Part shown: piece by piece, positions 5,286-59,839 of the stretch | How the letters are laid out: each line of letters starts with the position of its first letter | How positions within the stretch are numbered: position 1 is the first letter of the stretch | From: Caprella mutica | Lineage: Eukaryota; Arthropoda; Malacostraca; Amphipoda; Caprellidae | NCBI GenBank assembly: GCA_947561585.1 | Contig: CANNZV010001867.1 | Location: 1-64,000 of the forward strand | DNA length: 64,000 nucleotides | Direction: 5' to 3' | The notes under the pieces: generated by a model | The model's input: the letters and a program-made list of their open reading frames with translations, nothing else | Database searches by the model: none | What the model was told of the DNA's origin: nothing | Translations under genes and position numbers: made by a program

Positions 5286-7061
5286 TACACCATTAGCAGA
5301 TCTATTCTTCATGTCAAGAGCAGTTGTTGACTCGAATTATTACGCCTCACGCCAAGTCATCTCGGCATGGAAATTGCTACTCGACTCAAGTGAACGATCG
5401 TCTCCGTCGGTATCAGTTTACGCACAGGGAGACACGCAGTCGGGACATAGTAGAGGATCGGCAGATCATAATAATAATCGTTATCTAAATATCATAATCA
5501 CAGGTTTCTTGTCCGAAAGTTTTTATCTAGAATGTCCGACGACATACTGTTCTTTTAAATCTATTATAAATTTCAATTGGATTTCAGTCGATTATGTTAT
5601 CTTCTTAGATAGGTAATGCTTACATCGATTATAAAATGTAGTTAAAATTTTAATTCAAACTAATTTCTACCGATTTTTCAACAATTTTCCATTTTACTTT
5701 TTAGAATAGCTTACCATTTCCATTAAATTAATATAAATAGAAATTGTATTAGGAATCTATTATAAATTTGAACCTAAATGTTTAATAAAATTAGCTTATT
5801 TTTCTGTTCATATATAATAAACAACACATTAACTAAATTATTATTTTATGACAACAGAATAATTATTATTACAAAATAATTAGATAAAACTTTACTTTAA
5901 TTAGTTTTCGTAAGAAGATTATAAATTTGAACAATCAGAAAAGAAGTTTTCTATATAATCAATTCTTGAAAATCTCAAAATTAATTATACTTCAATCGAA
6001 TATTCTATTGTTTTTTTAATAGTTTTCTAATTTAAATTTAAAATATTTAACTGGAATACTGAAATAAAAAAAATTTTGTTGTCGTAATAATTCGTATTTT
6101 CAAATTTTTCAAATATATAATTTTCTCACAAATACAAATTAAAGTACAATTTTATAAGAACAATTTTTGTTTGTATTTTTTTTTGGGGTAAAATATGGAA
6201 CATTAATGTTTTAATTAATTATATGAACTGAAAATACTAACTTTATTAAAAGTTCATAATAAATTATCATTCATTGAAAAATTACTTCCAATTTATTATT
6301 TGAATAACATTAATATTTTCATATGGAACGCATAATACTATTATACAAAAGTTGGAGATTAATGGTTATATAAAAGGAATACGTTAGGTAATAATATAAC
6401 TTATATGTATACATCTATTATATTTATATATTCATATACACTATCATACAGGTTATCTTTGACCTCCTGTGTGGTCTGTTGCCTATACAGATGACGGTAT
6501 GACATCTACACAGCTGGAATGTGTAAATACAGGCCATAAATTTACATACATAATATTAAGGCAATATTACTGGTTGCGTAATGTATAGTGAATACTGATT
6601 ATTTAAAAATGAAATAATCATATTTTGTTTCATATTTAAAATTTCTCAATCTTTCAATTTTTTAACTATACATTAAATTTATATTTTATCTCACATATTT
6701 TTGTTCATAAAACAAGCTTCTCGTGTATTTTATATTATAACTATTGTGAAGTAAAATATAAATGACTCAATATAATATAGAAAATTAAAAATGACTAACA
6801 AAACATTGTCTTTCATTAAAAAATTCCAAATTAAAACACTCATATAATATTTACCTTCAAAAGAATTAGTTAAGCAAGTAAATATTCATAAACTGAATAA
6901 TGAAGAGCTCGCAATTATGAGATAAATTAGTTTACTTTTGTGCCACAAAAAGGCAGCATGTGGCGCTAGTGTTTGTTATTATTTCTCTTTCATTTGTTAG
7001 TTCAGAAAATAACTCAAGTGAATGTGGTGTTAGAAACACTCGAGTAACAGGTTCAGAACCT
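5286..7061. other. No gene recognised
   Basis: About 5290-5480 is less AT-rich and contains an ATG frame (5311-5616) with no recognisable domain, so I leave it uncalled. The remainder is AT-rich with homopolymer runs and no coding signature. Confidence 0.4.
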
Positions 7062-7661
7062 AGCAACAGTATTTCCTTTGAAAATATCAACAGTATTTCC
7101 TTTGAAAATATCAACAGTATTTCCTTAGAAAATATCAACAGCATTTCCTTAGAGAATATCAACAGTATTTCTTTAGAAAATATCAACAGCATTTCCTTAG
7201 AAAATATCAACAGCATTTCCTTAGAAAATATCAACAGTATTTCTTTAGAAAATATCAACAGTATTTCCTTAGAAAATATCAACAGCATTTCCTTAGAAAA
7301 TATCAACAGTATTTCCTTAGAGAATATCAACAGTATTTCCTTAGAAAATATCAACAGTATTTCCTTAGAAAATATCAACAGCATTTCCTTAGAAAATATC
7401 AACAGTATTTCTTTAGAAAATATCAACAGTATTTCCTTAGAAAATATCAACAGCATTTCCTTAGAAAATATCAACAGTATTTCTTTAGAAAATATCAACA
7501 GTATTTCCTTAGAGAATATCAACAGCATTCCCTTAGAAAATATCAACAGTATTTCTTTAGAAAATATCAACAGTATTTCCTTAGAAAATATCAACAGTAT
7601 TTCTTTAGAAAATATCAACAGTATTTCCTTAGAAAATATCAACAGTATTTTATTATATTAG
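6960..7661 (+). CDS. Possible repeat-encoded protein (NSISLENI octad repeats), unproven
   Basis: An open frame runs from 6921 to the TAG at 7659-7661. It has no ATG before the repeats: the only nearby ATG (6958) is out of frame, so a spliced upstream exon would be needed. The frame begins with a hydrophobic, signal-peptide-like segment (VALVFVIISLSFVSS), then a short Cys-containing linker, then about 24 copies of the octapeptide NSISLENI. Nearly all variation between the 24-bp units sits at third codon positions of this frame (AGT/AGC, TCC/TCT, GAA/GAG), with TTA/TTT and one TCC to CCC as replacements. That hints at coding constraint, but a 24-bp unit without stops is open trivially. I recognise no family. 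Confidence 0.2.
   Translation: MALVFVIISLSFVSSENNSSECGVRNTRVTGSEPSNSISFENINSISFENINSISLENINSISLENINSISLENINSISLENINSISLENINSISLENINSISLENINSISLENINSISLENINSISLENINSISLENINSISLENINSISLENINSISLENINSISLENINSISLENINSISLENINSIPLENINSISLENINSISLENINSISLENINSISLENINSILLY
7062..7650. repeat. 24-bp minisatellite (about 24 copies)
   Basis: Tandem copies of a 24-bp unit (AACAGTATTTCCTTAGAAAA plus TATC), with variants at unit positions 6, 12, 15 and 18 and one change at position 10. Both strands are open through the array because the period is a multiple of three. Confidence 0.95.
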
Positions 7662-8225
7662 GAAAATTTCAACCTAAAAAAAGCGATTTATTTTTCAGTG
7701 TATAGTTTTATGTTGGTCTAATATTCGGTTATTGAAACACCATTACAGTTAAGTGAGTTTTATTAATTTATTGTTATTGATTTTACTATTAAATAGCTTA
7801 TATACGTATTTTCTTTAAGAAAGTAAATCTTAATATAGTTATACAAAAAGTATAATTTAAAATCTATAACAAATATGGAAGTTGATTAAAAAGAACATAG
7901 GTTCACACTTTAATTGTTTAGATACTTATATATATATATATAAAACTGTAAATAGTAGAATAATGATATCTTAGAAATATGGAAAAATGTACTTATCTTT
8001 GCCAGCTTATATCACAGCTCTAGTAAAATACTATGTGTACAGTATTATAACAATTATCTTAGAATTATTCTTCTCCATCTTGATCTCAGTTTAATAACTT
8101 CATTATATTATTAAAATATATATTCAAAGAAACTGCTTAGTGTATGTATTTATTGTATTGGTTTAATATTGTTTACGGTGATAGTTCATATAGTATCAAT
8201 TAGATATATTTATTTATAGTATAAA
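7662..8225. other. No gene recognised
   Basis: AT-rich sequence between two minisatellites, with a TA microsatellite near 7926-7942 and no supportable frame. Confidence 0.4.
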
Positions 8226-8820
8226 CAATCCACTATAGCTCTAGTTACTATATTATAGCATTTAGTAACCAATTCACTATAGCATCAGTTACTATATTAT
8301 AGCATTTGGTAACTAATCCACTATAGCGTCAGTTACTATATTATAGCATTGGGTAACCAATCCACTATAGCATCAGTTACTATATTATAGCATTGGGTAA
8401 CTAATCCACTATAGCATCAGTTACTATATTATAGCATTTGGTAACTAATCCACTATAGCATCAGTTACTATATTATAGCATTTGGTAACTAATCCACTAT
8501 AGCATCAGTTACTATATTATAGCATTGGGTAACCAATCCACTATAGCATCAGTTACTATATTATAGCATTTGGTAACTAATCCACTATAGCATCAGTTAC
8601 TATATTATAGCATTTGGTAACCAATCCACTATAGCATCAGTTACTATATTATAGCATTTGGTAACTAATCCACTATAGCATCAGTTACTATATTATAGCA
8701 TTTGGTAACTAATCCACTATAGCATCAGTTACTATATTACAGCATTTGGTAACCAATCCACTATAGCATCAGTTACTATATTATAGCATTGGGTAACCAA
8801 TCCACTATAGCATCAGTTAC
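8226..8820. repeat. 44-bp minisatellite (about 13.5 copies)
   Basis: The unit contains CCACTATAGCATCAGTTACT followed by ATATTATAGCATTTGGTAAC. Variants alternate GGTAACTAAT and GGTAACCAAT, and CATTTGG and CATTGGG. A looser series of ATCAGCTACTATATT-like motifs occurs again at 20047-20140. Confidence 0.95.
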
Positions 8821-9303
8821 TTCTTTTACGACTCATTTGGTGGTATGATATCTTTATGACTCAGTTTCAGCAGATCTTATAGGCTAGTGATCCATGGATT
8901 ATTGGGACTCAGTATAGATCCAATTGGGAATTGCAGCAATATTTGCGAGCCATTCCTCATATGCCTTCCAATACTACTTTGGCAAATTAGCTTCTAACCC
9001 TTTCGATGTACCAATTAAAATTAGAATATAGAGTAATATTGATGAAATTCTATATACACGGCATGAAAATCTAATGTGGTGAAGCTGTAGTTAAATTTGC
9101 TTACGGATTTATATATTGTATGAGTATGAATGATTTGCTTAGAATAATGGATATATATTTACATTTTTTATGTATATGTGGGTTCATCGTATACATAGTT
9201 TACAATTAATTACAATTAGTTATTAGTATAGATCATAATAATTTGAGATTGAACTTTTCTTAACTAAAACTATATAGTAACAAATGATTTTTTTTAAATA
9301 TGT
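8821..9303. other. No gene recognised
   Basis: Unique-looking AT-rich sequence between the 44-bp array and the following MITE. Confidence 0.4.
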
Positions 9304-29647: not shown

Positions 29648-30747
29648 TCTAGAATAGAGGTTAATTCATATCAGCACTAACTGAGCTATGGAAATTATAG
29701 AAAATATTAGCTTCTTAAACTGTGAAAAAAAATCAACAATATAATAGTGTTAATTACAGGATTATACTCATATAATACGCTATTTTAATCATAAATGAAT
29801 TACGTACTGATAGCTAATTTAAAAATATTGTCTAATAAAAGTTGGATACTATGTTTCATTTATTCATATTATTTGTAAGTTATAAAATACTTTGTAAATA
29901 CTAAAGATTATACATAAATGTTTAATGTTCATAAAGCATAATATAATTGTTCTTATATATTAAGCAAACTCTATATTTGTTCTCAAAAATGAAATAATAA
30001 ACTGTCACTATATGTTGTGACCAATAACCAACAAATGGTTAAGAACTCCAAATGAAGAAATAGATATTTCAAGTACAGTACACTCTACTAATCATTATGA
30101 TTAGTAGAGTCCTGAGTAATGAAACACCCTACATTTGTTATTAAAAATGTAAAATATATTTAAAATAATGAAATTCTTCTAAATTTGATACCATGTTCTT
30201 TTACTATTCATTTTAATCATATTAATATGAAAATATACATATTTTTCATTTGAATAAGACATTGAATGAAAATTTAAATATTGTTTTATAATTCCAAATT
30301 TTTCATAAAAAAGTCACAACTCTACTCTAAAAATTTAAAAAAAAATAAGATTGATTTTCATATAATTAATTATATATGTAAATTAGGTTAGATTTTCAAT
30401 TTAATGTAAATTTAAAAGTAATGGAATACATTTACTAGATTGAGTAAATCGTTGGAAATGATCTACTATTCTAAATAGTTTATTTGAACAAATATATCAC
30501 ATGCTTGTAATATTCTTAAAATTTATTGTAAAATGACTATTGATTAAAGGAGATTAATCGATTATATTGCCATAATCCATGTGTTTTTTGCTAAATTTAA
30601 AACTAACAATATTATATTATCACAATATGAAAGTTTAGATAAATTTTAATTTTAATATAGCATATATAATTACCATATAATAAAAAAGGATTAGTATTTG
30701 AGTGGAAATATGTTTCGAATATTTTTAGTTCATAAATTCAAAGAATT
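29648..30747. other. No gene recognised; short perfect palindrome
   Basis: AT-rich. At about 30085-30112, CTCTACTAATCA and TGATTAGTAGAG form a perfect hairpin with a tiny loop. Confidence 0.4.
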
Positions 30748-32655
30748 CATACATTAGTTCAACAGTTCTTGTATCAGTTCAACATTTCATATATTAGTTC
30801 AACATTTCATATATTAGTTCAACATTTCATATATTAGTTCAACAGTTCATATATTAGTTCAACAGTTCATATATTAGTTCAACAGTTCATATATTAGTTC
30901 AACATTTCATATATTAGTTCAACAGTTCACACATTAGTTCAACAGTTCCTGTATCAGTTCAACAGTTCATATATTAGTTCAACATTTCATATATTAGTTC
31001 AACATTTCATATATTAGTTCAACAGTTCACACATTAGTTCAACAGTTCCTGTATCAGTTCAACAGTTCATATATTATTTCAACATTTCATATATTAGTTC
31101 AACATTTCATATATTAGTTCAACATTTCATATATTAGTTCAACAGTTCATATATTAGTTCAACAGTTCATATATTAGTTCAACGTTTCATATATTAGTTC
31201 AACATTTCATATATTAGTTCAACAGTTCACACATTAGTTCAACAGTTCCTGTATCAGTTCAACAGTTCACACATTAGTTCAACAGTTCCTATATCAGTTC
31301 AACAGTTCCTGTATCAGTTCAACAGTTCATATATTATTTCAACATTTCATATATTAGTTCAACATTTCATATATTAGTTCAACAGTTCATATATTAGTTC
31401 AATATTTCATATATTAGTTCAACAGTTCATATATTAGTTCAACAGTTCATATATTAGTTCAACAGTTCACACATTAGTTCAACAGTTCCTGTATCAGTTC
31501 AACAGTTCCTGTATCAGTTCAAAAGTTCCTGTATCAGTTCAACAGTTCCTGTATCAGTTCAGCAGTTCCTGTATCAGTTCAACAGTTCCTGTATCTGTTC
31601 AACAGTTCATATATTAGTTCAACAGTTCATATATTAGTTCAACAGTTCCTGTATAAGTTCAACAGTTCCTGTATCAGTTCAACAGTTCATACATTAGTTC
31701 AACATTTCATACATTAGTTCAAAAGTTCATATATTAGTTCAACAGTTCATACATTAGTTCAACAGTTCCTGTATCGGTTCAACAGTTCCTGTATCAGTTC
31801 AACAGTTCCTGTATCAGTTCAACAGTTCCTGTATCTGTTCAATATTTCATACATTAGTTCAACAGTTCATATATTAGTTTAACAGTTCCTGTATCAGTTC
31901 AACAGTTCATATATTAGTTCAACAGTTCCTGTATCAGTTCAATAGTTCATATATTAGTTCAACAGTTCCTGTATCAGTTCGACAGTTCATACATTAGTTC
32001 AACAGTTCCTGCATGTATCAGTTCGACAGTTCATACATTAGTTCAACAGTTCCTGTATCAGTTCAAAAGTTCATATATTAGTTCAACAGTTCCTGTATTA
32101 GTTCAACAGTTCATACATTAGTTCAACAGTTCTTGAATCAGTTCAAAAGTTCATATATTAGTTCAACAGTTCCTGTATCAGTTCAACAGTTCAAATATTA
32201 GTTCAACAGTTCCTGTATAAGTTCAATAGTTCCTGTATCAGTTCAACAGTTCATATATTAGTTCAACAGTTCAAACATTAGTTCAACAGTTCCTATATCA
32301 GTTCAACAGTTCCTGTATCAGTTCAACAGTTCCTGTATCATTTCAACAGTTCCTGTATCAGTTCAACAGTTCACATATTAGTTTAACAGTTACTGTATCA
32401 GTTCAACAGTTCATATATTAGTTCAACAGTTCCTGTATCAGTTCAAACGTTCGTAAATTAGTTCAACAGTTCCTGTATCAGTTCAACAGTTCATAAATTA
32501 GTTCAAAAGCTCCTGTATCAGTTTAACAGTTCATATATTAGTTCAATCGTTCATATATTAGTTCAACAGTTCATATATTAGTTCTACAGTTCATATATTA
32601 GTTCTACAGTTCATATATCAGTTCAACAGTTCATATATCAGTTCAACAGTTCACA
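30748..32655. repeat. 20-bp satellite (about 95 copies)
   Basis: Units are TCATATATTAGTTCAACAGT (type A), TCCTGTATCAGTTCAACAGT (type B) and TCACACATTAGTTCAACAGT (type C). Type A dominates the left part, while A and B alternate in the right part (about 31880-32540), giving a loose 40-bp higher-order period. A 4-bp slip (GCATGTATC) occurs near 32011. No long frame. Confidence 0.97.
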
Positions 32656-33265
32656 TTTCTCAATATTAGCAGTGTCAGCTCCGTAGGCTTTATTCACTTC
32701 GTATTTACGTTTTAACGGTGAATGTTGATCTTGATCACTCATACCAGTTCTACTTACGCAGTCTTACATATTAAGGTCAAATACTTTCCATATTCAGTAA
32801 TGGAAAGTAATACAATTTAGTTAAAATTTCCTCTGTAAAAATCTAATTCTTATTAACCAATTTTTCTCAAAGATTTTTTTAAATATTAATTTTATATTAG
32901 GTCTTTTTTAGGTCATACATCGTTCATAAATTCATTAATGACTATCAAAGTAGTACGTAGTACATCCTAGATGCGCAGAAAAGTGTCCTAGTTTCAGAAA
33001 ATGAGGTGACCCACAATAAAAAAAAGTGTACCAATCAATTGCCAGTTAATCACTGTGACCTGCATGGTGTATTTAGTGCAATAAGTCACGGTCAGGTCAC
33101 GGTTTGTTGTTATCCCTTCAAGGTCACTGTACAGAGGCTTTAAAAATATAGACCAGCTGTGACCAACCTCAGTAATGCTACGAACGTGATCGAGTAAAGG
33201 TGTCCTATGTCTACAGGCAATAGATTTAACATAGTCTGCAAACGAGTCTATTAATTACCTAGATT
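32656..33265. other. Upstream region of the serine protease gene
   Basis: Less AT-rich than its surroundings at about 32960-33250, consistent with a promoter-proximal region. No repeat or other gene is seen. Confidence 0.4.
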
Positions 33266-33271
33266 TATAAA
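33266..33271 (+). promoter_or_regulatory. Candidate TATA box of the serine protease gene
   Basis: TATAAA within TTTATAAATAG lies 112 bp before the start codon at 33378. A transcription start about 30 bp downstream would give a 5' UTR of about 80 nt. A second TA-rich string (TATATAAACTATA near 33296) is an alternative. Confidence 0.4.
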
Positions 33272-33377
33272 TAGAAAACGATTGTATACTTTTATTTATA
33301 TAAACTATACAACTTGTGATATTAAAACTACAGATTTGGTAAATAAACAAACCGTGGTTATTATTTGTTAAATCAAA

Positions 33378-36300
33378 ATGGATTTAATTCATTCATCTTT
33401 TATTTTGTTTCTACTGAACTGGATCACAGGTTAGTTTAATAAATATTTATATTATATGCAACCAATGTAATTTCAAAAAAAAGTTCGTTTTGTGTTCACA
33501 CGGAATTTGAAATTAAAGAATGGTAATAAAACAATTCCTAAAATTAAATTGTATTTTTAAAAACATTTGCAATGAAACAATATACAAACCATTGTTATTA
33601 TTAATATTATTTTTAATAATGTTTTTAATTATTATTCATTATCATATAATTATCCAGCCGTATTAGATATTAATAGATTTTATATACGTAATTGATTTAC
33701 TTCATTTAAATCTCTTAAATTAATGAATCTGAAATTAACTATCAATTAATAATGAAAGCTGCTTTTAAAATTTTCTTTAACATATTAATATGTTTTTATA
33801 TCCGTTGAATTCAATGAGTTTTCTTCTCTATTTGCTGAACTGCATTAAACACTAAAACTTAACGTGTAGATGAAAAATGTTGATCATGAAAAATATTCGA
33901 GAAGATACAATATTGTTCCAATATTGGAACAATACTAGCAATATTGTACCAATATTGGAACAATATTGGTACAATATTGAGGAAATGTTGCCCCAATAAA
34001 TTTTGCTTTGCTTTGTAGACGACCTCCATAAGAAACCTGTTGATTTATTCCTAAATTTAGACCTAGCACTATAACCTCTGCTCCTCTGGTATCATAGTTT
34101 GTAACTAGAAATACAAGTCAATTATCCATCCTAATGAATAAATCAACAGATAATTATGATTATGATAGATATAGTAAAGTTAGACTTCAAATCAAAGAGA
34201 CTGCAAAAATAATTAATACTTTCAACTAGTCTATCCACAAATTTGTCATCGGCTGATAATCGTTCATAAACATTCACAGTATCGTAACGATTTTCAAACA
34301 ATAACATTGAAAATATAAACCAAATTATTTTCAAATGAAGCACGATAGGCAATCGTTATTAAATTTTATCATAAATTACGATTTAAATCTAATACTGTTT
34401 CATATTTTTTTATTCAAAATGACAAAAAAAATCTACTAAATAGAATTTTTTTATAATCTCTATGATATTATATTTACCGATGGTAATTTTTGCACTGGGA
34501 CACTTTAAGTGCAAGTGATCATGAACTGATATAATGAATGGTAAATAACTAAGGATATATACATATACATATAACCTGAGTGTACTATGAGAGTACTTTC
34601 ACTGCCTAACTGTTAAAAACTGGATTATCAGGAAGGGGAGGGACCAAATGGATTGCAAATCTTCCAGCTTTTATTCACTAATTCATCTAATTCCATGTCA
34701 TTAAAAATATTATGAAGTTAAATTTTTCAGAATAATTTTTTTGATAATAGGGTATTATAATTTACTTTTCAATTGAACATTTGTTTAAAATTTCTGTTCA
34801 GAAATTTAAAAATCAAAATTGATGATATATGAATATAATTGTATATATTGCATACAATATAATGATTTATAACAATAATCTTTAGGCCACACTAAATTAT
34901 GTGTGAATGTACTGTAACACTTTTACTTTCATTAGCAACGTTCCATTTGTTTTTCATGAACTGTGGAATAGAAATGTGTATTGAAATGAGATAGATAGGT
35001 ATTCTTGCTATCTATAAGTAGGTATGACATAAGTATAGATTAGCCTAAGATAGGTATACTATTGGTATAGGTAGGTATGCTATAGGTATAGATAGATATT
35101 CTGTAGGTATAGCTAGGTATGCTATAGGTATAGATAGATATTATGTAGGTATAGCTAGGATATGCTATAGGTATAGATGGATATTATGTAGATATAGCTA
35201 GGTATGCTATAGGTATAGATAGGTATGCTATAGGTATATAGATAGGTATGCTATAGGTATAGATAGATATTCTGTAGGTATAGCTAGGAATGCTATGGGT
35301 ATAGATAGATATTCTGTAGGTATAGCTAGGTATGCTACAGGTATAGATAGGTATGCCATAGGTATATAGATAGTTATGTTATAAAATAAATAGTTATGCT
35401 ATAGGTTTATGTAGAAATGTTATAGAAAAGGTATAGGTATTTTATGGTATACTGAGGGTTGTCGACTTTGACAAATTTCCGACACTGCCGAATATATCCT
35501 TAAGTTGTTTAATTTATTTTTCTTATTTTTTTAAGTCAAAAGTTTTCATTAAGACAAGAAGAATATAATTTTTAGAAGAGGTAATTGCTTCAGGAAGTAA
35601 ATTTTTGTAATCTCTTCATTTTTGAAGTTAAAAAAATAATTTATAGTATTTCTTAGCACTCTGGGAAAGTGCCCTAATTTTTCGTCTCTGGCAGCAACTC
35701 AGCAGAAGGTAACCAGCTTCTGAATTGTCTTCCCGGAAGTCCACAGCAAGCGAAACTAATTAAGCCAGTATTTAAAAGCGCTTGTAACGAATGACTGAGG
35801 CGATTGTTTGGTGTACTCTGTAAAGTATAATTATATATTTTATTAACCTATAAAGTATTTGTAGCTCTTATATTAAAACCAATGCTGGAATTAAAGGGCA
35901 ATTATATAAGTGTCCTTTCTAACTTCAGTAAAGGACAAGAACAGAAGATTTTAATAATAACTGTTCTTTGAAATATATGCAGTTGGAAAACCTAGGTATA
36001 TGTAGGTAGGCAAGATATAGGTTCAGGTAGGTATATAATGAAATGATTAATATTAAATAAAGGTAGGAGTAGTTTGTGCATAAGTAAGTAGGTTTCTTTT
36101 ACCTATAAGTAGGTATGACATAATTATGCTTCTAATTCACTGATTTTCAAATATATTCATTCCAAATTCCAAATAGTTCACCTGGATATAATGAAAATAA
36201 AATTTATATTTCTAATTTAATATATTTGTATTAACTTTAAATGTTCGTTTCATTAGTGTATATATTTTATTATGAAATACAGGATTCTCTAAATCAAATT

Positions 36301-43617: not shown

Positions 43618-46600
43618 TGTGAAGCAGTGTTAAAACTCTACCAACAATATGTATCTGAATACATACCTCACCTAGCTGATCTTCAACCAAAATGTTTTGA
43701 AATAAAGAAAAGTTATTTCCCTGATGAAATGGCTTTGTTTATGCTGAGAATCTCAACTATTCTCTCCATGGAAGAACTAGCAAATAATTCACTTCTATAC
43801 CAAAATAACACTGATTTAAAATATCCTCTTTATGACAATATATCACATAACATTCAAGAGTCAACGGGGCTTAATATCACAAGTGTTTCAAATGTACAGA
43901 ATAGTGATTCTAGTTTCTTCTTTACGAATCACTCAAATGTTCCATTCGCTTCAGCATTACAAGGCAATGAATGGAAAAATACAAACACCAAAAATATATT
44001 AGATGTTAATGTTACGGAAAATTTAGATTTTAATAAAAGTGAAAAATCTGAAGAGTTGTCCACATCGGCCACTGATTTGCTACAAAAGCAAGATATAAAT
44101 ATTGCCCAACCTGTCTCTGATTATTTAGAATTTATCAATGAACAAGAAGATAAAGAAAATTCAAATACTAATAGAAATATAAGTTCTTTGAATATGAATA
44201 AAAAGGCTTCTGACTTCGAGTACTATGATTTTCTGGCACCAAAAGAAAGAGATCCAATTCCTCCTCCTCTAACATCTTACTCCTTGGTGAGCCCAATACC
44301 GTTACCTAAAAATAGGAAGAAAACTAACATTACACAGAATATTTCAAACGACTTAATGAATCAGCAGAATACTTCAAATGGCCTGACGAATCAGAAGAAT
44401 ATCACAGAAAACAGAACACTGAACAGAACACTGAATACAGGTAATCCTTATCCATACGGGCCAATCGTGCTTCCTGATAACGCAGAGGTAAAACATTCTG
44501 TCGATCCTGAGACAATATCTTCAACGATATCTCCCGTCACTATACCTACAACAGAGCTTCTAACTCCAAATTCAGTTGAAAATGTCGATGATTATGAATA
44601 CCATTACGAATCTTACGAATACGATGCTCAAACACATGAAGTACACACTGAAAAGCCAACAGTTCTGTTTCATTTTGATGGACCAGGTTACATGCCGGAA
44701 GCACCGAGTACGAAGCCACCTCCAGTGTGAGTAAATTTTTAGTTTACCGCTGATTATAATTAGTCTTAATAGAAGCGTATTGCTTCGTGGGAAACAAAAG
44801 TTATATGAAAGTAAATGAAATATTAAAAACTCTAAATACAAATATATTTCACGAATGCATCTACATAGTTAGTGTGTATCTTTAATAATGTAATAATACG
44901 CTGCAATTTGCTATATTTATGGGTTATATTATAAAATAATGTAACTAATCTTTCTTCAGACGGGCTCCAACACCCAGCGATCCATGGAACTGCAGTATGA
45001 AATGTCCTAAGTGAGTGTGATCTTTAGCTAATGCTTCTCACATGAAACGAGTTTAATTATATTTGAAATTCTATTCAAATAAAAATAATTGTTTTATATA
45101 ATATTTTTTACAATTCTTCAATAAATACTTTATACGATATATATAGTGATAGTGAGACGATCATTACATTTTATAAATTAATAGCCTACATAACTTATGG
45201 ATTTGTCTATTTATAATATGCTAATGATAATCTCTAGCTATACACTAGAAGATTGGAACTCCTTTTATGAAGTACGGAGGTACCCTAAGATGACTTGGCT
45301 CAGTACAATCATCATCAACAAAGAACGGGTGTTGGCAGAACTGGAAGGATACATGAGGATCCAAGATTATTTCTTCGGATTAAATGATAGAGGTGATGCT
45401 CAAAGCTTACTATATTTCTTCACTTATTAAAAAAACGAGAAAGTTAGAGTATTAGCTTTGTTTAAGAAGTCAAACTAGGAAATTTGTCTTGGTTCAGCTT
45501 TACGAACTTCTATATATATATTTGTGAATCTTTAATACTTCTAGCGGTAAATTTTTTATACATATGTAGGTGTGACTAATACATTTCAAAATACATATAG
45601 TCAAATTGGTATAGGTGACTTTTTTTCAAAGATCCTCTTTCCTTTCTGACTGCTCCTTCCAGTCCCATGTATTTCATTTCCTTATGACGTCAGCGAAATG
45701 ACCTCTGGTTCCGAAGCAGACATTAATTTCCTACTGAAAATAATTAATAACTCATTTCATTTCAGGGTTGACGATGAACTTATCAGTCCCTTTCATAACG
45801 CAAATCAAACAAGGGAAGCACCCCGGAGTAGTGACTGAAATCAGTGACCACACGATTTCCCTTCATGTTCCTCCTGACGCTATACAAGAAGCATACGGCA
45901 TGCCTGCACCAATTAGCAACGAGGTGTTTAGCTATCGTAAAATTTGTTCTATACTGATGATGATCTAATTCAGAATTCTCACGACAGATAAGAATTCGAA
46001 ATTCTTTCTACTATATGTATATATGGTCGTCTAATTTAATATTTCAAAACTCTTCAGAATTTCACTAATTCTTTCGCTTTATTTAAATTAGTTAAACTCA
46101 TTAATCAATAGGAACATAGGAACACACTCAATAACAACGGAAACATAAAATTTTATCATCAAACCTTTCTTTTGCAGATCTTAATAGACACTCTGGAGCC
46201 AAAAACAGTATTCGTGAGCAGCTTCAAAATAGACATATGGGAAGTTACGAATGAGTTTCTGGAGAATAAAGCGCAACTGCTAATGGAGAAACTAAGAAGC
46301 AATGGAGAGGCCTTCATCGATCGATACTTTTACTTAGCGTCTTACAGCAGGTAATACTTAGGATTAGGTACATTCTACTTAAGATATGAACGTTTTAATG
46401 GTGAAAATAATAAACTGTAAGGAACTTACAATCATTGAAAAAATACTATTGATCAAAATAAAATAAATTTTAATAAATAAACTATCTGTGTTGTTTTAAA
46501 TTATGAACTGTTCCAAAAAAAGGAGATAGACCAATTTTTGTAATTTCACCTCCTTCGTGCGTAAAATATTGCGACTTTGATCAATTTAGACAATTTTAAT

Positions 46601-49600
46601 ATTTTATGTAATATTAACCATTTTAATAATTTGAGAACTTAAAATCGCTTCACATCTATAAACACAAACCCCTGGAACAATACAGGCAATTTTTTAAAAT
46701 TCATTTTCCTATCAATAGTATTTTTTCTATGCTCAATAAATCTTTCAAGTCATGTTCCTTATATATTTTTAAAATGAATGTCAATTATTATTGCTTGACT
46801 ATCGAAACGTCCTGATATTAAATACCATGCAGTACTAGTGTTACTTTTTTATCCTTAGCCTTCGCAGGCAATGGTATCTTTAATTGATATTCTACCTCAT
46901 TGTACAACCATAAATATTTCGATATAACGAAAAATATTCTTTCTTGGATCTCCTCATGTATCTTCACTTCGTATAGTATAGGTTAATTAAATCAGGTCAC
47001 TTAAAATGTGAATTCATAATAGTTCCTAACTGTTTCCAGACCAGAATTATATCAGCCGGTGTACTATGAAATTTGGATATACGCCACGACTCTGAGAACC
47101 CCGAAGGTTCAACCTCCGGAGCCAATGCCCAGACCCCGCATGCCACCCTTGAGTAAAATCACTCAAGACACCGTGCAGAAACTGTGCCGAGGTTCGTACA
47201 GAACTATGGTAGTTACTATAATATTTCAAGAGTTGTAGGTTATTATCATAATCCGATTCCAGCATATAAGTAATTTATTAGAGTAAAGACAGTAATAATA
47301 AAGGTATTGTAAGTAACATGGATACAGGGCATATAAATAGATTTCCTAATTAATAGAATAAATAATATGAATATTACATCTCTCCCCTTCCTCATTTATG
47401 AAATCAGTAGGTAAGGCGATCAGGAGGTTTCGTTACTCTAGTACTTCTCCTAATTTCTTGATCCGCACTTTCTAGTTATTCAGGTTCTAATTCAATTTCG
47501 GGTTACATAGTATTCTCTTCTAAGGTAGAACGATTTTCAAGTTATTCAGTTATTAATTCTTAATCCTCTTCATTAGTCTTTGTGCAATCCTCTTCATTTA
47601 AAATCACCTCGGTACAATCATATTATTAGTTTTAGATAGGAAATTATTGCTAAAAGTCCACATCTTCACTTTTCTCATTTATTGAGTTGGTATCAATTTC
47701 GATTGGAATTTATTTGAATTGTGATATGTCTCTTGTAACTCTTCTTTGTGCATCATTCATTGCTGTAATCATTGATCCTTTTTTAGCAATTACAGTCATT
47801 GGTGTAGGATCAAAAATAGGATCATTCTTGTTTCTCTAATGATTCCTCAACAGAACCATATCACCAATATTCACTTTCTTGTATTTCTTATGGTGTCTCT
47901 CTGCATAGTGTTTCATTTTATATTTTGAGATGTAGTCATTTCTTCTAATCGGTACCGTTATATTAACATTTACTTTCTGTTATATTTCTTCCAGTTCAGG
48001 TAATCGTGTTCTCATTTTTCGATTAAACATAACTTCATAGGGCGAAAAATTAGTACTAGTATGAGGAGTAGCACGATAATTTCGTAGATAAGTTTAAATT
48101 TCTTATAACCAATTTCTATTTTCAACTAATGAACTTCTTATGGATTTTCTCAAATTTCTCATCATTCTTTCAACTTCACCGTTGGCTCTTGGATGTCCTG
48201 GTGTAACTTTCCGATGTTGAATATCCAATTGCTAACAATAATGCTAAAACTTTGAGGAGGTGAATGGAGGGCCGTTATCTGTTCTTACTTCTTACGGAAC
48301 TCCAAACATGCCGATAATTTTATCAAATGAATCTATCACAGTGTCTGCTTGAAGATTATTTAAAACCTCCACTATTGGATATCGGGAATAATCATCGTGA
48401 ACAACAAATAGATATTTTTGATTTTCTATGGGACCAAGAAAATCCATGGAGAGTTGCTACCAACAGTATTTAGGTAGTTCTGACATGTGCAGTGGTTAAC
48501 TCTGACTTTAGTCTGTTACTGATTAGCAGGCTAAGCAATTTTATATTAATTCATAAACTTTCTTGTCGATGTTGGGAAACCACACCTTGCTTCGTAGCAG
48601 TTATTTGGTTTTTACAATACCCAGATGACCTTCATGAGCTTATTTTAATAATGTGTCTTGCTAAGAATCAGGAATTATAACGCGATGTCCTCTCATGATA
48701 AGGCCCTCTTCGCTTATCCATAATTCATCTTCAATATTGAAAAAGGATCTCAATTGCGTAGTTTGTTCTTTTGGTGGAGGCCATTTCTTGTTTATCAAAA
48801 ATTTCTCAACTTCTTGAAGTGTCTTGTCCTTCATTGTTTGCTCGACTAATTCCTTCTTTGATATTTTCTTCGGTATGCTAATATTAGTGATGTAATTGCA
48901 GTATTATTCTATTGATTCTTCCAAACGAATATCCTATTTTGAACCAACCACCGGGGCTCTTGAAAGATAATCTGAAGGGTTAGATTTACCTTCAGTATAT
49001 TCAACTGTAAAATCGTACTATTGCACCTTAAGTAGCATCCGTTCTATTCTTGACGTTATTTATGATCTTGGATTATTAAATATTCTCTCTAATGGTTTGT
49101 GATCAGAGAATACAGTAAATTTTTATCCTCTCAGGTATAGGTTGAAGTGGGCCGGTTATTCCCCAAATGACAGCTAGAGCTTCTCGTTCTATCTAGGAGT
49201 ACCTCTATTGTGTTTCTGAGAGAGCTTTACTTGCATAATTTATGGCTACTGTTTCATTGGTGCCTTTCTTAGATTGAATTAATAATGCCCCTAATCCAAC
49301 AGGACTGGCATCGACAATCAATTGCGTTTTCTGATTGATGTCAAAGTAAGACAATTATGAGTTAGTTTATAGCTCATCTTTTATTTATTTGACTGCTCTC
49401 TCGTGTTCCGAAGTCCAAGTCCATTTATTCTATTTCTGTAATTTTCTAAGCGGTGCTGTCAGAGATGCAAGTCTGCCAATGAATCTTCCACAATAGTTTG
49501 CCATTCCTAGAAAGCTCCTTAATTCTTTGATATTAGTTGGTGATGGCAGTTTCTTAATTGTTTGTACTCTAGTTGCATCGGGTGATATACCATTTTTAGA

Positions 49601-52600
49601 AAAAGTATATCCAAAGAATTTAATTTCATCTTGGCTGAAACTACATTTATCTTTATTTAATGTGAAACCACTTTATTCGAGGGACTACATGACAGCCTTC
49701 AGGTTATAGTCGTGTTCATTTTAAGTTTGTCCAAAAACAACAATGTCATCACTAATATTAATAGCTCCTGGTATATTAGCAATAGTGCTTTGAGTGATGT
49801 TTTGAAATACCTCAGCAGCAGATGAAATTCCAAAACTAAGTCTCTTGTATTTTCTCAAACCGACATGTGTTGAGAATGTAGTTATCGGGCGGCTATCAGG
49901 ATGTATCATTATTTGATGGTAACCTTGATTCAAGTCAAGCTTGGAAAAGACTGTAGCTCCATTAAATCTACAAATTATGTCATCAATGGTAGGTGAAAGA
50001 TGGCGTTCTCTTTAAATTGCCTTATTGGCTTCTCTCATATCTACGCACAATCTTATTTCTTTCGGATTATTTGGCTTTGGTACCACCACAATGGGTGATA
50101 CCCAGGGTGTAGGTCTATCAACTTCTTCTATGATGTCATTATCTTCTAGCTCCTTTATTTTATTCTCAATCTATTTCCTAAAATGAAAAGGAATTCTCCG
50201 ATGTTACTAGATGACTGGTTTAATGTTTTCATCTATATGTAGCTTGACTGAACTTCCTTTATATTTTCCAATTCCTTTAAATAAATTCGGGTAATCTTAC
50301 ATTAATTATGATGATGTGATATTATTTGCAATATCAATAATTTTTAATCTTGAAGCAGTTTTAAATCCCAATAAATTTCCTGTATTGTAGCTATCGGTAA
50401 CATAGAAAGTGACCTCTTCGTACACCTTATTAAAAGCAACAGTTGCTTTAAATTTTCCTTTTATTTTCATAGGATATTTACTTTAAAATGCGTATATTTA
50501 TATCGCAGTTTCCATTAGCTTCACCTTATTCTTGAGTAAGGAATAATGGTATCCATCTATTATGTTCACAGATGCTCCTGTATCTAAAAAAAATTAAATA
50601 TCTGTCCCGTTAAGCTTCATCATAATTTATGGTGCTTATTAGTAATTTGATGAAGCATTTTAGATGTATTCATGTTCAGAGCTAGTTGCAGTTTCATCTT
50701 CATCACTAGACTCCTTTATGTCAGTGTCAATAGATTTGATTGCTCTCTTCTTCTTGAAGCACACTGTTTCGAAGTGATTGAATCCCTTGCAATGGTTACA
50801 TTTCTTGCCTTTTGCTGGGCATTCTTTTGAGTGAGGATATTGTCCGCCACATCGGTAACATTTCTTTTCTTTCGTGTTTTCATTTGTTCTTAATTTGTTT
50901 ATTTTATGATTATTTTCCATTTCTGATGCCTGTGCTATGGACATCTCCATGGACCTGGCTGTAACGAGTAGCTTAGCAAGCGTAAGAGACTCCTGCAGTG
51001 CCTTTAATCTCAACTGATGTGAGGTGCATCCTTGTATGAGCTGTATTTTAATTTCATTGTCAGTATCATGAAATTCACAATTTGCAGCTATTTTCCTTAG
51101 GCGAGTGTGAAAAATGTCAATATTTTCATCTCGTCCTTGAACAGCTTTCCTGAATTTGATAACCTCAAATTCTACACTTTTTCTGGGGCAGAAATGGTTG
51201 TTGAGTAGAGTAACTAGTTCAGCAAAGGTGTCACATTTATCATTGGGCAGAGAACTATATATTTCAAAGAGTTCCTCTCCTCCATTGTGAAGCATCAGTG
51301 CTATCTTCTGTTCCTCTTCTTCTATTTTGTATGCTTTCAGCATGTTTTCAAATCTTGCCACATATTTTTTCCATCTTGCTCCAGCAGAGGTAATTTCTTC
51401 ATTTGCTACAAATGTTCCAATTTGTCCAAAAAGTTTTTCCATCGTCGCCAATATAATATTTCAAGAGTTGTAGGTTATTATCATAATCCGATTCCAGCAT
51501 ATAAGTAATTTATTAGAGTAAAGACAGTAATAATAAAGGTATTGTAAGTAACATGGATACAGGGCATATAATTAGATTTCCTAATTAATAGAATAAATAA
51601 TATGAATATTACAGTTACGGTGGCCGGAAATTTGGAAATTCGGTCTTGAAATTTTGGTTTCGGAATCATAAATGACCTCTCAACTTAAATTGCCATTATG
51701 TACTTTATTGTATCCGCTAGTTTGATGTACTTCACACTTCATGATTGTTTAATAACCTGGCAGGGGGGTTGGGGTATACATCTAACTTATACAAGCTATA
51801 TTATACCTAAGACCGAAAATTCCGAGACCGAATTTTCCGCTCAAATCTCATGTTAAATAAATGTCAATACATGGTAAAATTAATAATGTGACGTATCATT
51901 AATTTTAAAACGGTTAAGGGTGTTATTCGCTTTTAATAAATACACTACACATTTTAGTAATCATAACTTGAACTTTTTCTCTTTCTTTTCTTTAACAAAA
52001 TCATTATAAAATGAGATTGAATTTTCCAAGACCGAGTTTCCCTAGAACCGGTAGCTACAGAGCAAAAAGAAATCGATTTGCCGGATGACCAATTCAAATT
52101 ATCGATCATTCATGAAGACTTGCGTTGAATATATTGACAAAAGTTTTCTGAAAAAATGATAATAAACCATACTGAAGCTTTAATTAGGGGTATCACACCT
52201 GAACGTCAAATGCTGTTAGTTGTACTTCAATGGACTTTTCTTACAGGTGTAGAATGTCCATCCTTCGAGGTGGTCAGAGCTTACAAATATGGAATACAGA
52301 AGCGCCGCTACTACGATGTGATGTTCGCATCTGTATCTACTGGAGACTGCTACTTCTCTACTCTATCCGTCTGGCGAGGCTTCATGCCCTTACATCTATA
52401 CAAACATGGTAACTTATAAATCAAATATAAAAAGAAATACTTTGGACTGAAATCTTTCAATTAATCTAGTTTCTCTAGGTATGAACTCGCAAATGGAGGT
52501 CATAGAGGCTACTCGGCCAATAGCTGTTGTGAAAGTTGCTGAGGATTCGACCTCAAACACAGAGTGTCCACAAAATCTGACGATGTCGCTCTTTCTGCCA

Positions 52601-58735: not shown

Positions 58736-59839
58736 ATGAATTCGATGATAGATTTTAATATTACTTATTTTAGAGTCAATGAAAATAATATTGTCAATGC
58801 AAATAATATTGTCAATGAAAATAATATCGTCTATGCAATTAATATCGTCAATGCAAATAATATTGTCAATGAAAATAATATTGTCAATGAAAATAATATT
58901 GTCAATGAAAATAATATCGTTAATGAAAATAATATCGTCAATGAAAATAATATCGTCAATGAAAATAATATCGTTAATGAAAATAATATCGTAAATGAAA
59001 ATAATATCGTAAATGAAAATAATATCGTTAATGAAAATAATTTCGTCAATGAAAATAATATCGTCAATGAAAATAATATCGTTAATGAAAATAATATCGT
59101 AAATGAAAATAATATCGTAAATGAAAATAATATCGTCAATGAAAATAATATCGTTAATGAAAATAATATCGTAAATGAAAATAATATCGTCAATGAAAAT
59201 AATATCGTTAATGAAAATAATTTCGTTAATGAAAATAATATCGTTAATGAAAATAATTTCGTCAATGAAAATAATATCGTCAATGAAAATAATATCGTTA
59301 ATGAAAATAATATCGTAAATGAAAATAATATCGTAAATGAAAATAATATCGTCAATGAAAATAATATCGTTAATGAAAATAATATCGTAAATGAAAATAA
59401 TATCGTCAATGAAAATAATATCGTTAATGAAAATAATTTCGTTAATGAAAATAATATCGTCAATGAAAATAATATCGTTAATGAAAATAATATCGTTAAT
59501 GAAAATAATATCGTCAATGAAAATAATATCGTTAATGAAAATAATATCGTCAATGAAAATAATATCGTTAATGAAAATAATTTCGTCAATGAAAATAATA
59601 TCGTTAATGAAAATAATATCGTAAATGAAAATAATATCGTCAATGAAAATAATATCGTTAATGAAAATAATATCGTCAATGAAAATAATATCGTTAATGA
59701 AAATAATATCGTAAATGAAAATAATATCGTCAATGAAAATAATATCGTTAATGAAAATAATTTCGTTAATGAAAATAATATCGTCAATGAAAATAATATC
59801 GTCAATGAAAATTTCAATAGTAGGTTTTTTTCAAATTAA
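58736..59839 (+). CDS. Possible repeat-encoded protein (NNIVNE hexapeptide repeats), unproven
   Basis: A 367-codon ATG frame in good insect start context (GCAAAATGA). A 12-residue unique start (MNSMIDFNITYF) is followed by about 57 copies of the hexapeptide NNIVNE and a short tail (FNSRFFSN). Third-position changes dominate among units (ATT/ATC, GTC/GTT/GTA). The recurring replacement is Ile to Phe (ATC to TTC), spaced unevenly. There is no signal peptide, domain, or splice or poly(A) support. An 18-bp unit without stops is open by default, so this may be a plain minisatellite. Confidence 0.25.
   Translation: MNSMIDFNITYFRVNENNIVNANNIVNENNIVYAINIVNANNIVNENNIVNENNIVNENNIVNENNIVNENNIVNENNIVNENNIVNENNIVNENNIVNENNFVNENNIVNENNIVNENNIVNENNIVNENNIVNENNIVNENNIVNENNIVNENNIVNENNFVNENNIVNENNFVNENNIVNENNIVNENNIVNENNIVNENNIVNENNIVNENNIVNENNIVNENNIVNENNFVNENNIVNENNIVNENNIVNENNIVNENNIVNENNIVNENNIVNENNFVNENNIVNENNIVNENNIVNENNIVNENNIVNENNIVNENNIVNENNIVNENNIVNENNFVNENNIVNENNIVNENFNSRFFSN
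58776..59812. repeat. 18-bp minisatellite (about 57 copies)
   Basis: Tandem copies of AATAATATCGTCAATGAA, with variants TCGTTAATG, TCGTAAATG and TTTCGT distributed in recurring runs, so blocks of units have been duplicated together. The left end carries older-looking ATTGTCAATGCA variants. Open frames on the - strand are by-products. Confidence 0.96.

Follow-up and report, generated by a model that had tools for sequence, protein, structure and literature searches.

Can an animal that uses the standard genetic code decode dozens of stop codons as an amino acid within one reading frame? Protists are known for changes of the nuclear code, and phages for recoding at the level of genes. The question is raised here by a minus-strand Ty3-type long terminal repeat (LTR) retrotransposon in a 64,000-nucleotide stretch of the 903-Mb assembly of Caprella mutica (G000:C1867:1-64000; "the window" denotes this whole stretch). 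Protease (PR), reverse transcriptase (RT), RNase H and integrase were recognised piecewise in this order, and this order, the LTRs and a 5-bp target duplication place the element among Ty3/gypsy; we take it to be a member of the mag clade. Its Pol frame is filled with TAA and TAG codons (TAR; UAR in RNA) and lacks TGA. Codon statistics, related copies and homolog comparisons make it probable that Pol is decoded with UAR as glutamine (Gln) and UGA as the sole stop, the standard code still applying to Gag and to the host genes.

Pol contains 37 TAA and 14 TAG codons (51 TAR), 29 Gln codons of the CAA or CAG type (CAR), six CGA codons and no TGA. A first-pass annotation of the sequence had counted 38 TAA and 14 TAG, Gag terminator included, with no TGA until position 47406, and the recount was exact, also for the six CGA. 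The continuity of the frame from Gag through RT that it described also holds, Pol from 50659 being in phase with the Gag ATG at 51442. As for the frame change that it placed near 49150, it is private to the window copy, 17 of 20 other copies being continuous there. The two other frames of both Pol pieces hold 78 TGA among 200 stops, and at this off-frame share the probability of finding no TGA in 51 stops is about 1e-11. The ratio of TAR to CAR (51:29) equals that of the leucine (Leu) codons TTR and CTR in Pol (39:22; p=1.0 for the share of T at the first base), as expected if the choice between C and T is synonymous.

The stops did not accumulate where the element now lies. The LTRs differ at one of 162 bases and are flanked on both sides by GTAAC; the corresponding divergence of about 0.3% per LTR since insertion predicts about 10 substitutions over the 3.25 kb of Pol. 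Thus, the insertion is young, and the 51 stops are older than it and were inherited with it.

Further copies of this family, hereafter family A, carry the same stops. The Gag search of the genome, in which 147 of 853 candidate places were scored, provided 20 further copies, that is, every other place with at least 80% identity except one short fragment, and these were compared codonwise, in pieces. Three old copies (L025, L026 and L028) were excluded from the counts, leaving a young set of 17. At the 51 TAR sites, 821 comparisons with the young copies gave 808 TAR, 2 CAR, 11 other codons and no TGA, and at the 29 CAR sites 459 comparisons gave 446 CAR, 6 TAR and 7 others. TAR positions are therefore shared among copies, as the first-pass annotation had proposed to check, and the pattern that it had named as refuting, CAR at these sites with random stops including TGA, was not seen in the young copies. 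Ordinary decay does give TGA here, because the three old copies hold 2, 1 and 2 internal TGA in Pol part 1. By comparison, the stop codons that individual young A copies have gained in Pol comprise 8 TAR and 0 TGA (P 0.004-0.03, depending on the neutral ratio), which fits a frame where TAR is tolerated and TGA is not.

Polymorphisms common to several copies arose in replicating lineages. In A Pols, shared polymorphisms comprise 19 synonymous and 12 nonsynonymous changes, versus 36:87 among singletons, which is the neutral ratio (p=0.0014); 15 multi-change sites, 2 third-base Gln changes, 5 CAR/TAR sites and 19 TAR/non-Gln sites were omitted from these counts. The Pol protein thus appears, on codon statistics, to have been selected while the stops were in place, and a constrained protein is, we infer, a protein that is made.

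The same architecture recurs in other families, identified among 20 loci with related Gags. Family B (11 loci) shows 46% identity to A in Gag and 61% in RT. Its Gag has 264 codons with 9 CAR and no TAR, followed by TAA, and in four loci (L030, L032, L035 and L037) the first TGA comes after 1062 codons, among them 24-26 TAR and 32-33 CAR; the remaining 7 of 11 loci are broken, two of them through a TAG inside Gag. Loci L029-L032 have LTRs identical at 173 of 173 bases, with matching 5-bp duplications. Family C is more distant (about 30% identity in Gag and 37% in RT; 4 loci fetched), and its putative primer site is unlike that of A and B. Its Gag has 270 codons with 12 CAR and no TAR, also ending in TAA; three loci run for 1049 codons to TGA with 22-23 TAR and 53 CAR, and at L041 the two LTRs, 166 bp each, are identical. 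In all three families, Gag and Pol lie in one frame with a stop between them, and UGA is the sole stop of the Pol frame at the intact loci. Taking one intact locus per family, none of the 30 Gln codons of Gag is TAR, versus 100 of 216 in Pol (p=8e-8), the TAR share of Pol Gln codons being 64% in A, 42% in B and 30% in C. Pol polymorphism comprises 16 synonymous and 17 nonsynonymous changes in B (4 loci; p 0.001-0.02) and 13 and 10 in C (3 loci; p 0.0004-0.01), tested against a neutral expectation of 71-78% nonsynonymous changes computed on A codons. In family D (L044 and L045), the sister of C in RT, UAG ends Gag at both loci and an in-frame Pol with few stops follows; D would thus be a single-stop readthrough type related to C. 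Family E, with a 304-codon Gag, was left out of the recoded set, its Pol lying in another frame.

Which residue stands at the TAR sites was assessed with homolog profiles (120 RT-RNase H sequences, the best 120 of 1731, and 120 integrases, the best 120 of 253), with TAR scored as X; since the search that gathered the homologs treated TAR as Q, the profiles may lean slightly toward Q. At the testable TAR sites of A, 26 in number, Gln was the best residue (22.6 nats) and lysine (Lys) the second (-4.9), compared with 14.4 for Gln and -7.8 for Lys at 22 CAR sites. The sense codons of A Pol each recovered their own residue as best, for every codon present except CAG (3 sites). Among the 26 TAR sites, the residue most frequent in homologs is Q in 10 cases, K in 5, E in 4 and a different one in 7; the corresponding counts for the 22 CAR sites are 6, 5, 4 and 7. 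Mean homolog Gln frequency is likewise similar at both kinds of site (TAR 0.26 and CAR 0.24 in A; 0.24 and 0.29 in B), versus 0.03 elsewhere in either family. At 18 TAR sites of B, Gln scored 15.9 nats and the runner-up, Lys, 1.6. When TAR is counted as Q, A retains 97 of 105 and 41 of 43 of the columns in which conservation reaches at least 90%, and TAR in B coincides with a Gln codon of A at 7 of 11 sites, versus 35 of 624 elsewhere (p=9e-7). These results suggest that the TAR sites of A and B act as Gln sites, whereas the Gln signal of family C is almost nil. The first-pass proposal that Pol was shaped where UAR means Gln is thus supported by the 20 further copies, by family B, by C through its anatomy, by the profile scores of A and B, by the synonymous-like behaviour of CAR and TAR in A, and by selection on Pol.

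Several observations weigh against this interpretation. The profile test reached only 26 of the 51 TAR sites of A, and at some of these sites the homologs have another residue (48663, L in 98%; 48642, mostly L; 50206, P; 49357, V; 48096, Y). In C, Gln scored 0.8 and asparagine 0.0 at 17 TAR sites, Q being commonest at 1 of them, and three TARs fall at conserved glycine or proline columns; at 51 CAR sites of C, Gln scored 6.5 and Q was commonest at 10, the profile being distant from this family. TAR coincidence between A and C is weak (p 0.04-0.13), and the site comparison found none between B and C. The TAR share lies under the Leu T share in B (42 vs 70%) and in C (30 vs 64%). As for the first-pass proposal to test whether CAR/TAR swaps behave as synonymous, the match with Leu in A speaks for it, and the shared changes in young copies, just one CAR/TAR swap versus three between TAR and non-Gln codons, speak against it. 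In addition, three A copies have each gained one TAA in Gag. Finally, about 50 serial readthroughs demand near-complete suppression: if 5% of ribosomes are to get beyond 52 stops, readthrough would have to reach about 94% at each.

Recoding on this scale is not a property of the whole genome. A census of RT-RNase H matches, in which 112 of 3253 candidates were scored so that counts are lower bounds, found at least 20 places at 94% identity or more, each with 9-15 stops and none with TGA, and at least 12 B-like and at least 11 C places, also free of TGA. At least 12 places have TGA, 9 of them partial matches. At least 47 of the 112 RT matches contain no stop at all and at least 10 others contain TAR only; recoding is therefore family-specific. 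In the closest stop-free relative among the matches scored (C2433, 50% identity), a single open frame covers Gag and RT. Opposite 13 sites where A has TAR, this relative carries CAR at 4, Lys at 3, glutamate at 2, and proline, aspartate, serine and isoleucine at 1 each, with CAR at 8 of 337 non-Gln sites. The genome thus holds stop-free, single-UAG (D), partly recoded (B, C) and saturated (A) Pols side by side. The animal nature of the host shows in 38 wnt-domain matches on 7 contigs, compared with 0 of 14 prokaryote controls, Wnt not being known outside animals. Next to the element, four host exons contain 21 CAR and no TAR (Table 1). These exons, the absence of TAR among the 30 Gag Gln codons and the stop-free families (47 of 112 matches) conflict with a global loss of UAR termination, and genome-wide UAR reassignment is accordingly not what this genome displays.

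Local signals do not offer a simple solution either. Leaky-context readthrough was rejected, the base after TAR in Pol (A 20, T 12, C 12, G 7) giving no single preferred context. Family A has a 13-bp hairpin after the end of Gag (window 50610-50660; z -2.5, and -2.7 in L011), and z is -2.2 in B and +0.4 in C, where no hairpin was found; with this model, which excludes pseudoknots, no structure downstream of the Gag stop was common to A, B and C. With no common next base and no common structure, per-site signals are unlikely, and as global loss is also at odds with the data, either a suppressor tRNA-Gln or weak UAR release in particular cells is required.

A candidate for weak release was found among eRF1-type genes. 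The eRF1_1 family search of the genome returned four places: two exons assigned to Pelota, one exon of a canonical eRF1 carrying GTASNIKSRVNRLSV (TASNIKS), and an intact, intronless 473-codon open frame ending in TGA on a 541-kb contig (G000:C385:414336-415751; L066:737-2152), hereafter the C385 paralog. This paralog, the sole such copy among 7 candidates scored, has three eRF1 domains (28.5, 113.5 and 82.8 bits, all above cut-off), matches a solved eRF1 (1dt9) with 273 bits and retains GGQ, with KSASIKS in place of TASNIKS and YNCSPTF in place of YLCDNKF. As to a viral origin, no relative was found in viral contigs. Paramecium eRF1 has EAASIKD and YFCDPQF, and according to PMC4695839 both changed motifs jointly give UGA-only release; the C385 paralog agrees with it in the A-S within ASIK and, in the second motif, in the P. 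Against this, its KS is as in Blepharisma (KSSNIKS) and its SIKS as in Euplotes (TAESIKS), both of them ciliates that reassigned UGA (PMC4695839). Because these motifs share S or K-S with the paralog, its sequence suggests altered stop recognition without telling which kind, and that it causes the UAR decoding is possible, though doubtful.

In the proposed picture, most cells would make only Gag, ending at UAA. In cells where the element replicates, probably the germ line, termination at UAR would be weak, and ribosomes would continue past the Gag UAA and through the whole of Pol, with Gln at UAR, until UGA. As the candidate agent, the paralog, predicted to favour UGA, would compete with normal eRF1, so that tRNA-Gln would decode UAR. 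The paralog would thereby create a cell state, a conditional second code, that at least two, perhaps three families exploit in Pol and not in Gag, so that their replication enzymes would be made there only. The role of the paralog in this scheme is put forward tentatively. Murine leukaemia virus (MuLV) offers a precedent for a retroelement that relies on weak release: according to PMC4178896, 5-10% of ribosomes put Gln in at the UAG between its Gag and Pol, and binding of its RT to eRF1 is reported. As in MuLV so described, Gag and Pol share a frame with a stop between them; unlike MuLV, which has one stop and a downstream RNA structure, the present families have 22-53 further Pol stops and no common structure.

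The same UAR decoding could instead be achieved by a dedicated suppressor tRNA-Gln with a UUA or CUA anticodon, which the first-pass annotation had named as its second possible cause and proposed to search for. In favour of such a tRNA, the TAR sites of A and B point to Gln, and the canonical eRF1, with its TASNIKS, calls for some competitor; UAR-reading tRNAs exist in ciliates (PMC4967479). The searches speak against it. The canonical tRNA-Gln anticodon/T-arm pattern, with up to 2 mismatches, gave 32 places, all TTG or CTG, a result that also tells against UAR decoding as such; the Gln arm with YTA gave no exact match and 34 one-mismatch matches, 15 of them TTG arms. ARAGORN, run on 13 of these 34 places, called one tRNA-Gln(TTG) that served as control, one tRNA-Tyr and no tRNA at the other 11, and it found none in the window and 40 element loci, while detecting a normal tRNA-Gln in L065. 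An 8-copy repeat with a Gln-like arm and TTA (G000:C194, C1459, C1497, C3576, C3946 and C5404; L050-L057) was rejected, as ARAGORN recognised no tRNA in it. A suppressor was thus not found with two patterns or with ARAGORN in the loci scanned, divergent arms lying outside the patterns, and we regard this explanation, too, as possible rather than likely.

Another view is that Pol is dead and decayed, with the families mobilised in trans by helper proteins and the stops neutral. Non-autonomous LTR families exist, the window copy has a frame break, singletons in A show the neutral ratio (36:87) and several B and C loci are broken. However, neutral decay would gain TAR and TGA at 1.0-1.8 to 1, whereas the 51 stops include no TGA and the old copies L025, L026 and L028 do gain it. 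Polymorphism, whether shared or within family, points to a Pol under selection in each of the three families, conserved columns are kept with TAR as Q (97/105 and 41/43), and B insertions with identical LTRs are equally TAR-coded. We consider a dead Pol improbable.

Horizontal transfer from an organism with UAR as Gln, such as a ciliate, which the first-pass annotation had offered as a cause, would agree with translation table 6 in both the code and the sole UGA stop. It fits poorly with Gags lacking TAR (0/30) and with the presence in the same genome of C2433, which is stop-free, 50% identical and joins Gag to RT in one frame; this genome moreover holds families of differing TAR load. A and B nest among standard-coded public relatives, the named ones all animals among the matches listed, and no close relative of the element was confirmed in viral or prokaryotic contigs; such a transfer is very improbable. 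Least credible are C-to-T hypermutation and U-to-C RNA editing, for although CAR to TAR is a C-to-T change, 12 of 12 columns with histidine commonest keep CAY and TAY codons fit tyrosine, TGA is absent despite six CGA, the effect is frame- and gene-specific with no out-of-frame excess of the same change, and editing would bring CAR into new insertions via reverse transcription, yet 2 of 821 comparisons are CAR, so that the first-pass dismissal of a general C-to-T process stands.

The features of the element and of the neighbouring host gene region are collected in Table 1. Gag scores 22.3 bits against the Retrotrans_gag profile, under the cut-off of 24.1. Its relatives P0241 (57% identity) and P0242 (84%, partial), both found in public assemblies, can be aligned with it up to its final residue; other samples thus contain relatives whose Gag stops at this point. 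The RT and integrase matches listed include no Pol on a contig as long as that of P0241 (2671).

Table 1. Coordinates of the retrotransposon and the host gene region within the window.
Feature	Position	Strand	Remarks
5' LTR	51452..51613	-	162 bp, TGTAATAT...ATATTATA; target duplication GTAAC at 51614-51618
Putative tRNA primer site	51439..51450	-	TGGCGACGATGG; adjoins LTR, overlaps Gag start; role inferred from position
Gag	50660..51442	-	260 aa; two zinc-knuckle-like Cys clusters; 9 CAR, 0 TAR, 0 TGA ahead of terminator; ends TAA (50662-50660)
Pol part 1 (protease, reverse transcriptase, most of RNase H)	49154..50659	-	in Gag frame; 21 TAR, 12 CAR, 0 TGA
Pol part 2 (RNase H end, integrase, C-terminal tail)	47407..49149	-	after frame break near 49150; 30 TAR, 17 CAR, 0 TGA
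Presumed Pol terminator	47404..47406	-	first TGA in Pol frame; second in-frame TGA three codons on, at 47394
Putative polypurine tract	47379..47393	-	GAGGAAGGGGAGAGA; role inferred from position
3' LTR	47217..47378	-	161/162 bases as 5' LTR; target duplication GTAAC at 47212-47216
Host gene region	43618..46348	+	open exon 43618-44730 (370 codons); exons 45239-45391 (SOUL domain), 45774-45923, 46178-46348; short-exon limits by eye; single gene inferred

Large minisatellite arrays occupy 1-2112, 7064-7650, 30746-32653 and 58775-59812 of the window, and those near 7 kb and 31 kb sit in long frames open under code 6 (6921-9287 and 30702-33575). Openness under code 6 alone thus says little.

Compared with known systems, the element resembles mag-type Ty3/gypsy elements, as we take it to be, in its Gag, its PR-RT-RNase H-integrase order, its 5-bp target duplication and its short LTRs, and its RT-RNase H is up to 58% identical to standard-coded relatives among the matches listed; it differs from them in the probable use of UAR as a sense codon in Pol. 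In the ciliate nuclear code, UAR is Gln, UGA is the sole stop, and eRF1 has altered TASNIKS and YCF motifs (PMC4967479, PMC4695839); here, by contrast, recoding is confined to the Pol of some retrotransposons, Gag and neighbouring host exons are standard, and canonical eRF1 is kept. Gut phages recoded with code 15 (UAG as Gln), as reported in PMC9523058 and PMC10879173, the latter naming suppressor tRNAs, offer the likeness of a mobile entity that reads a stop as Gln inside a standard-code host. The present case differs from these phages in being an animal retrotransposon, in involving both UAA and UAG and in exempting Gag, and ARAGORN found no element-borne tRNA in the window and 40 loci. No animal case of such recoding was found in the open-access literature, a scope that leaves most subscription journals and preprint servers outside.

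If the interpretation is true, an animal with the standard code decodes dozens of UARs within one reading frame, a code change may begin gene by gene rather than genome by genome, and gene finders have classed such elements as dead. With Pols ranging from stop-free to saturated and two eRF1-type genes in one genome, the onset of stop reassignment would be directly testable in C. mutica.

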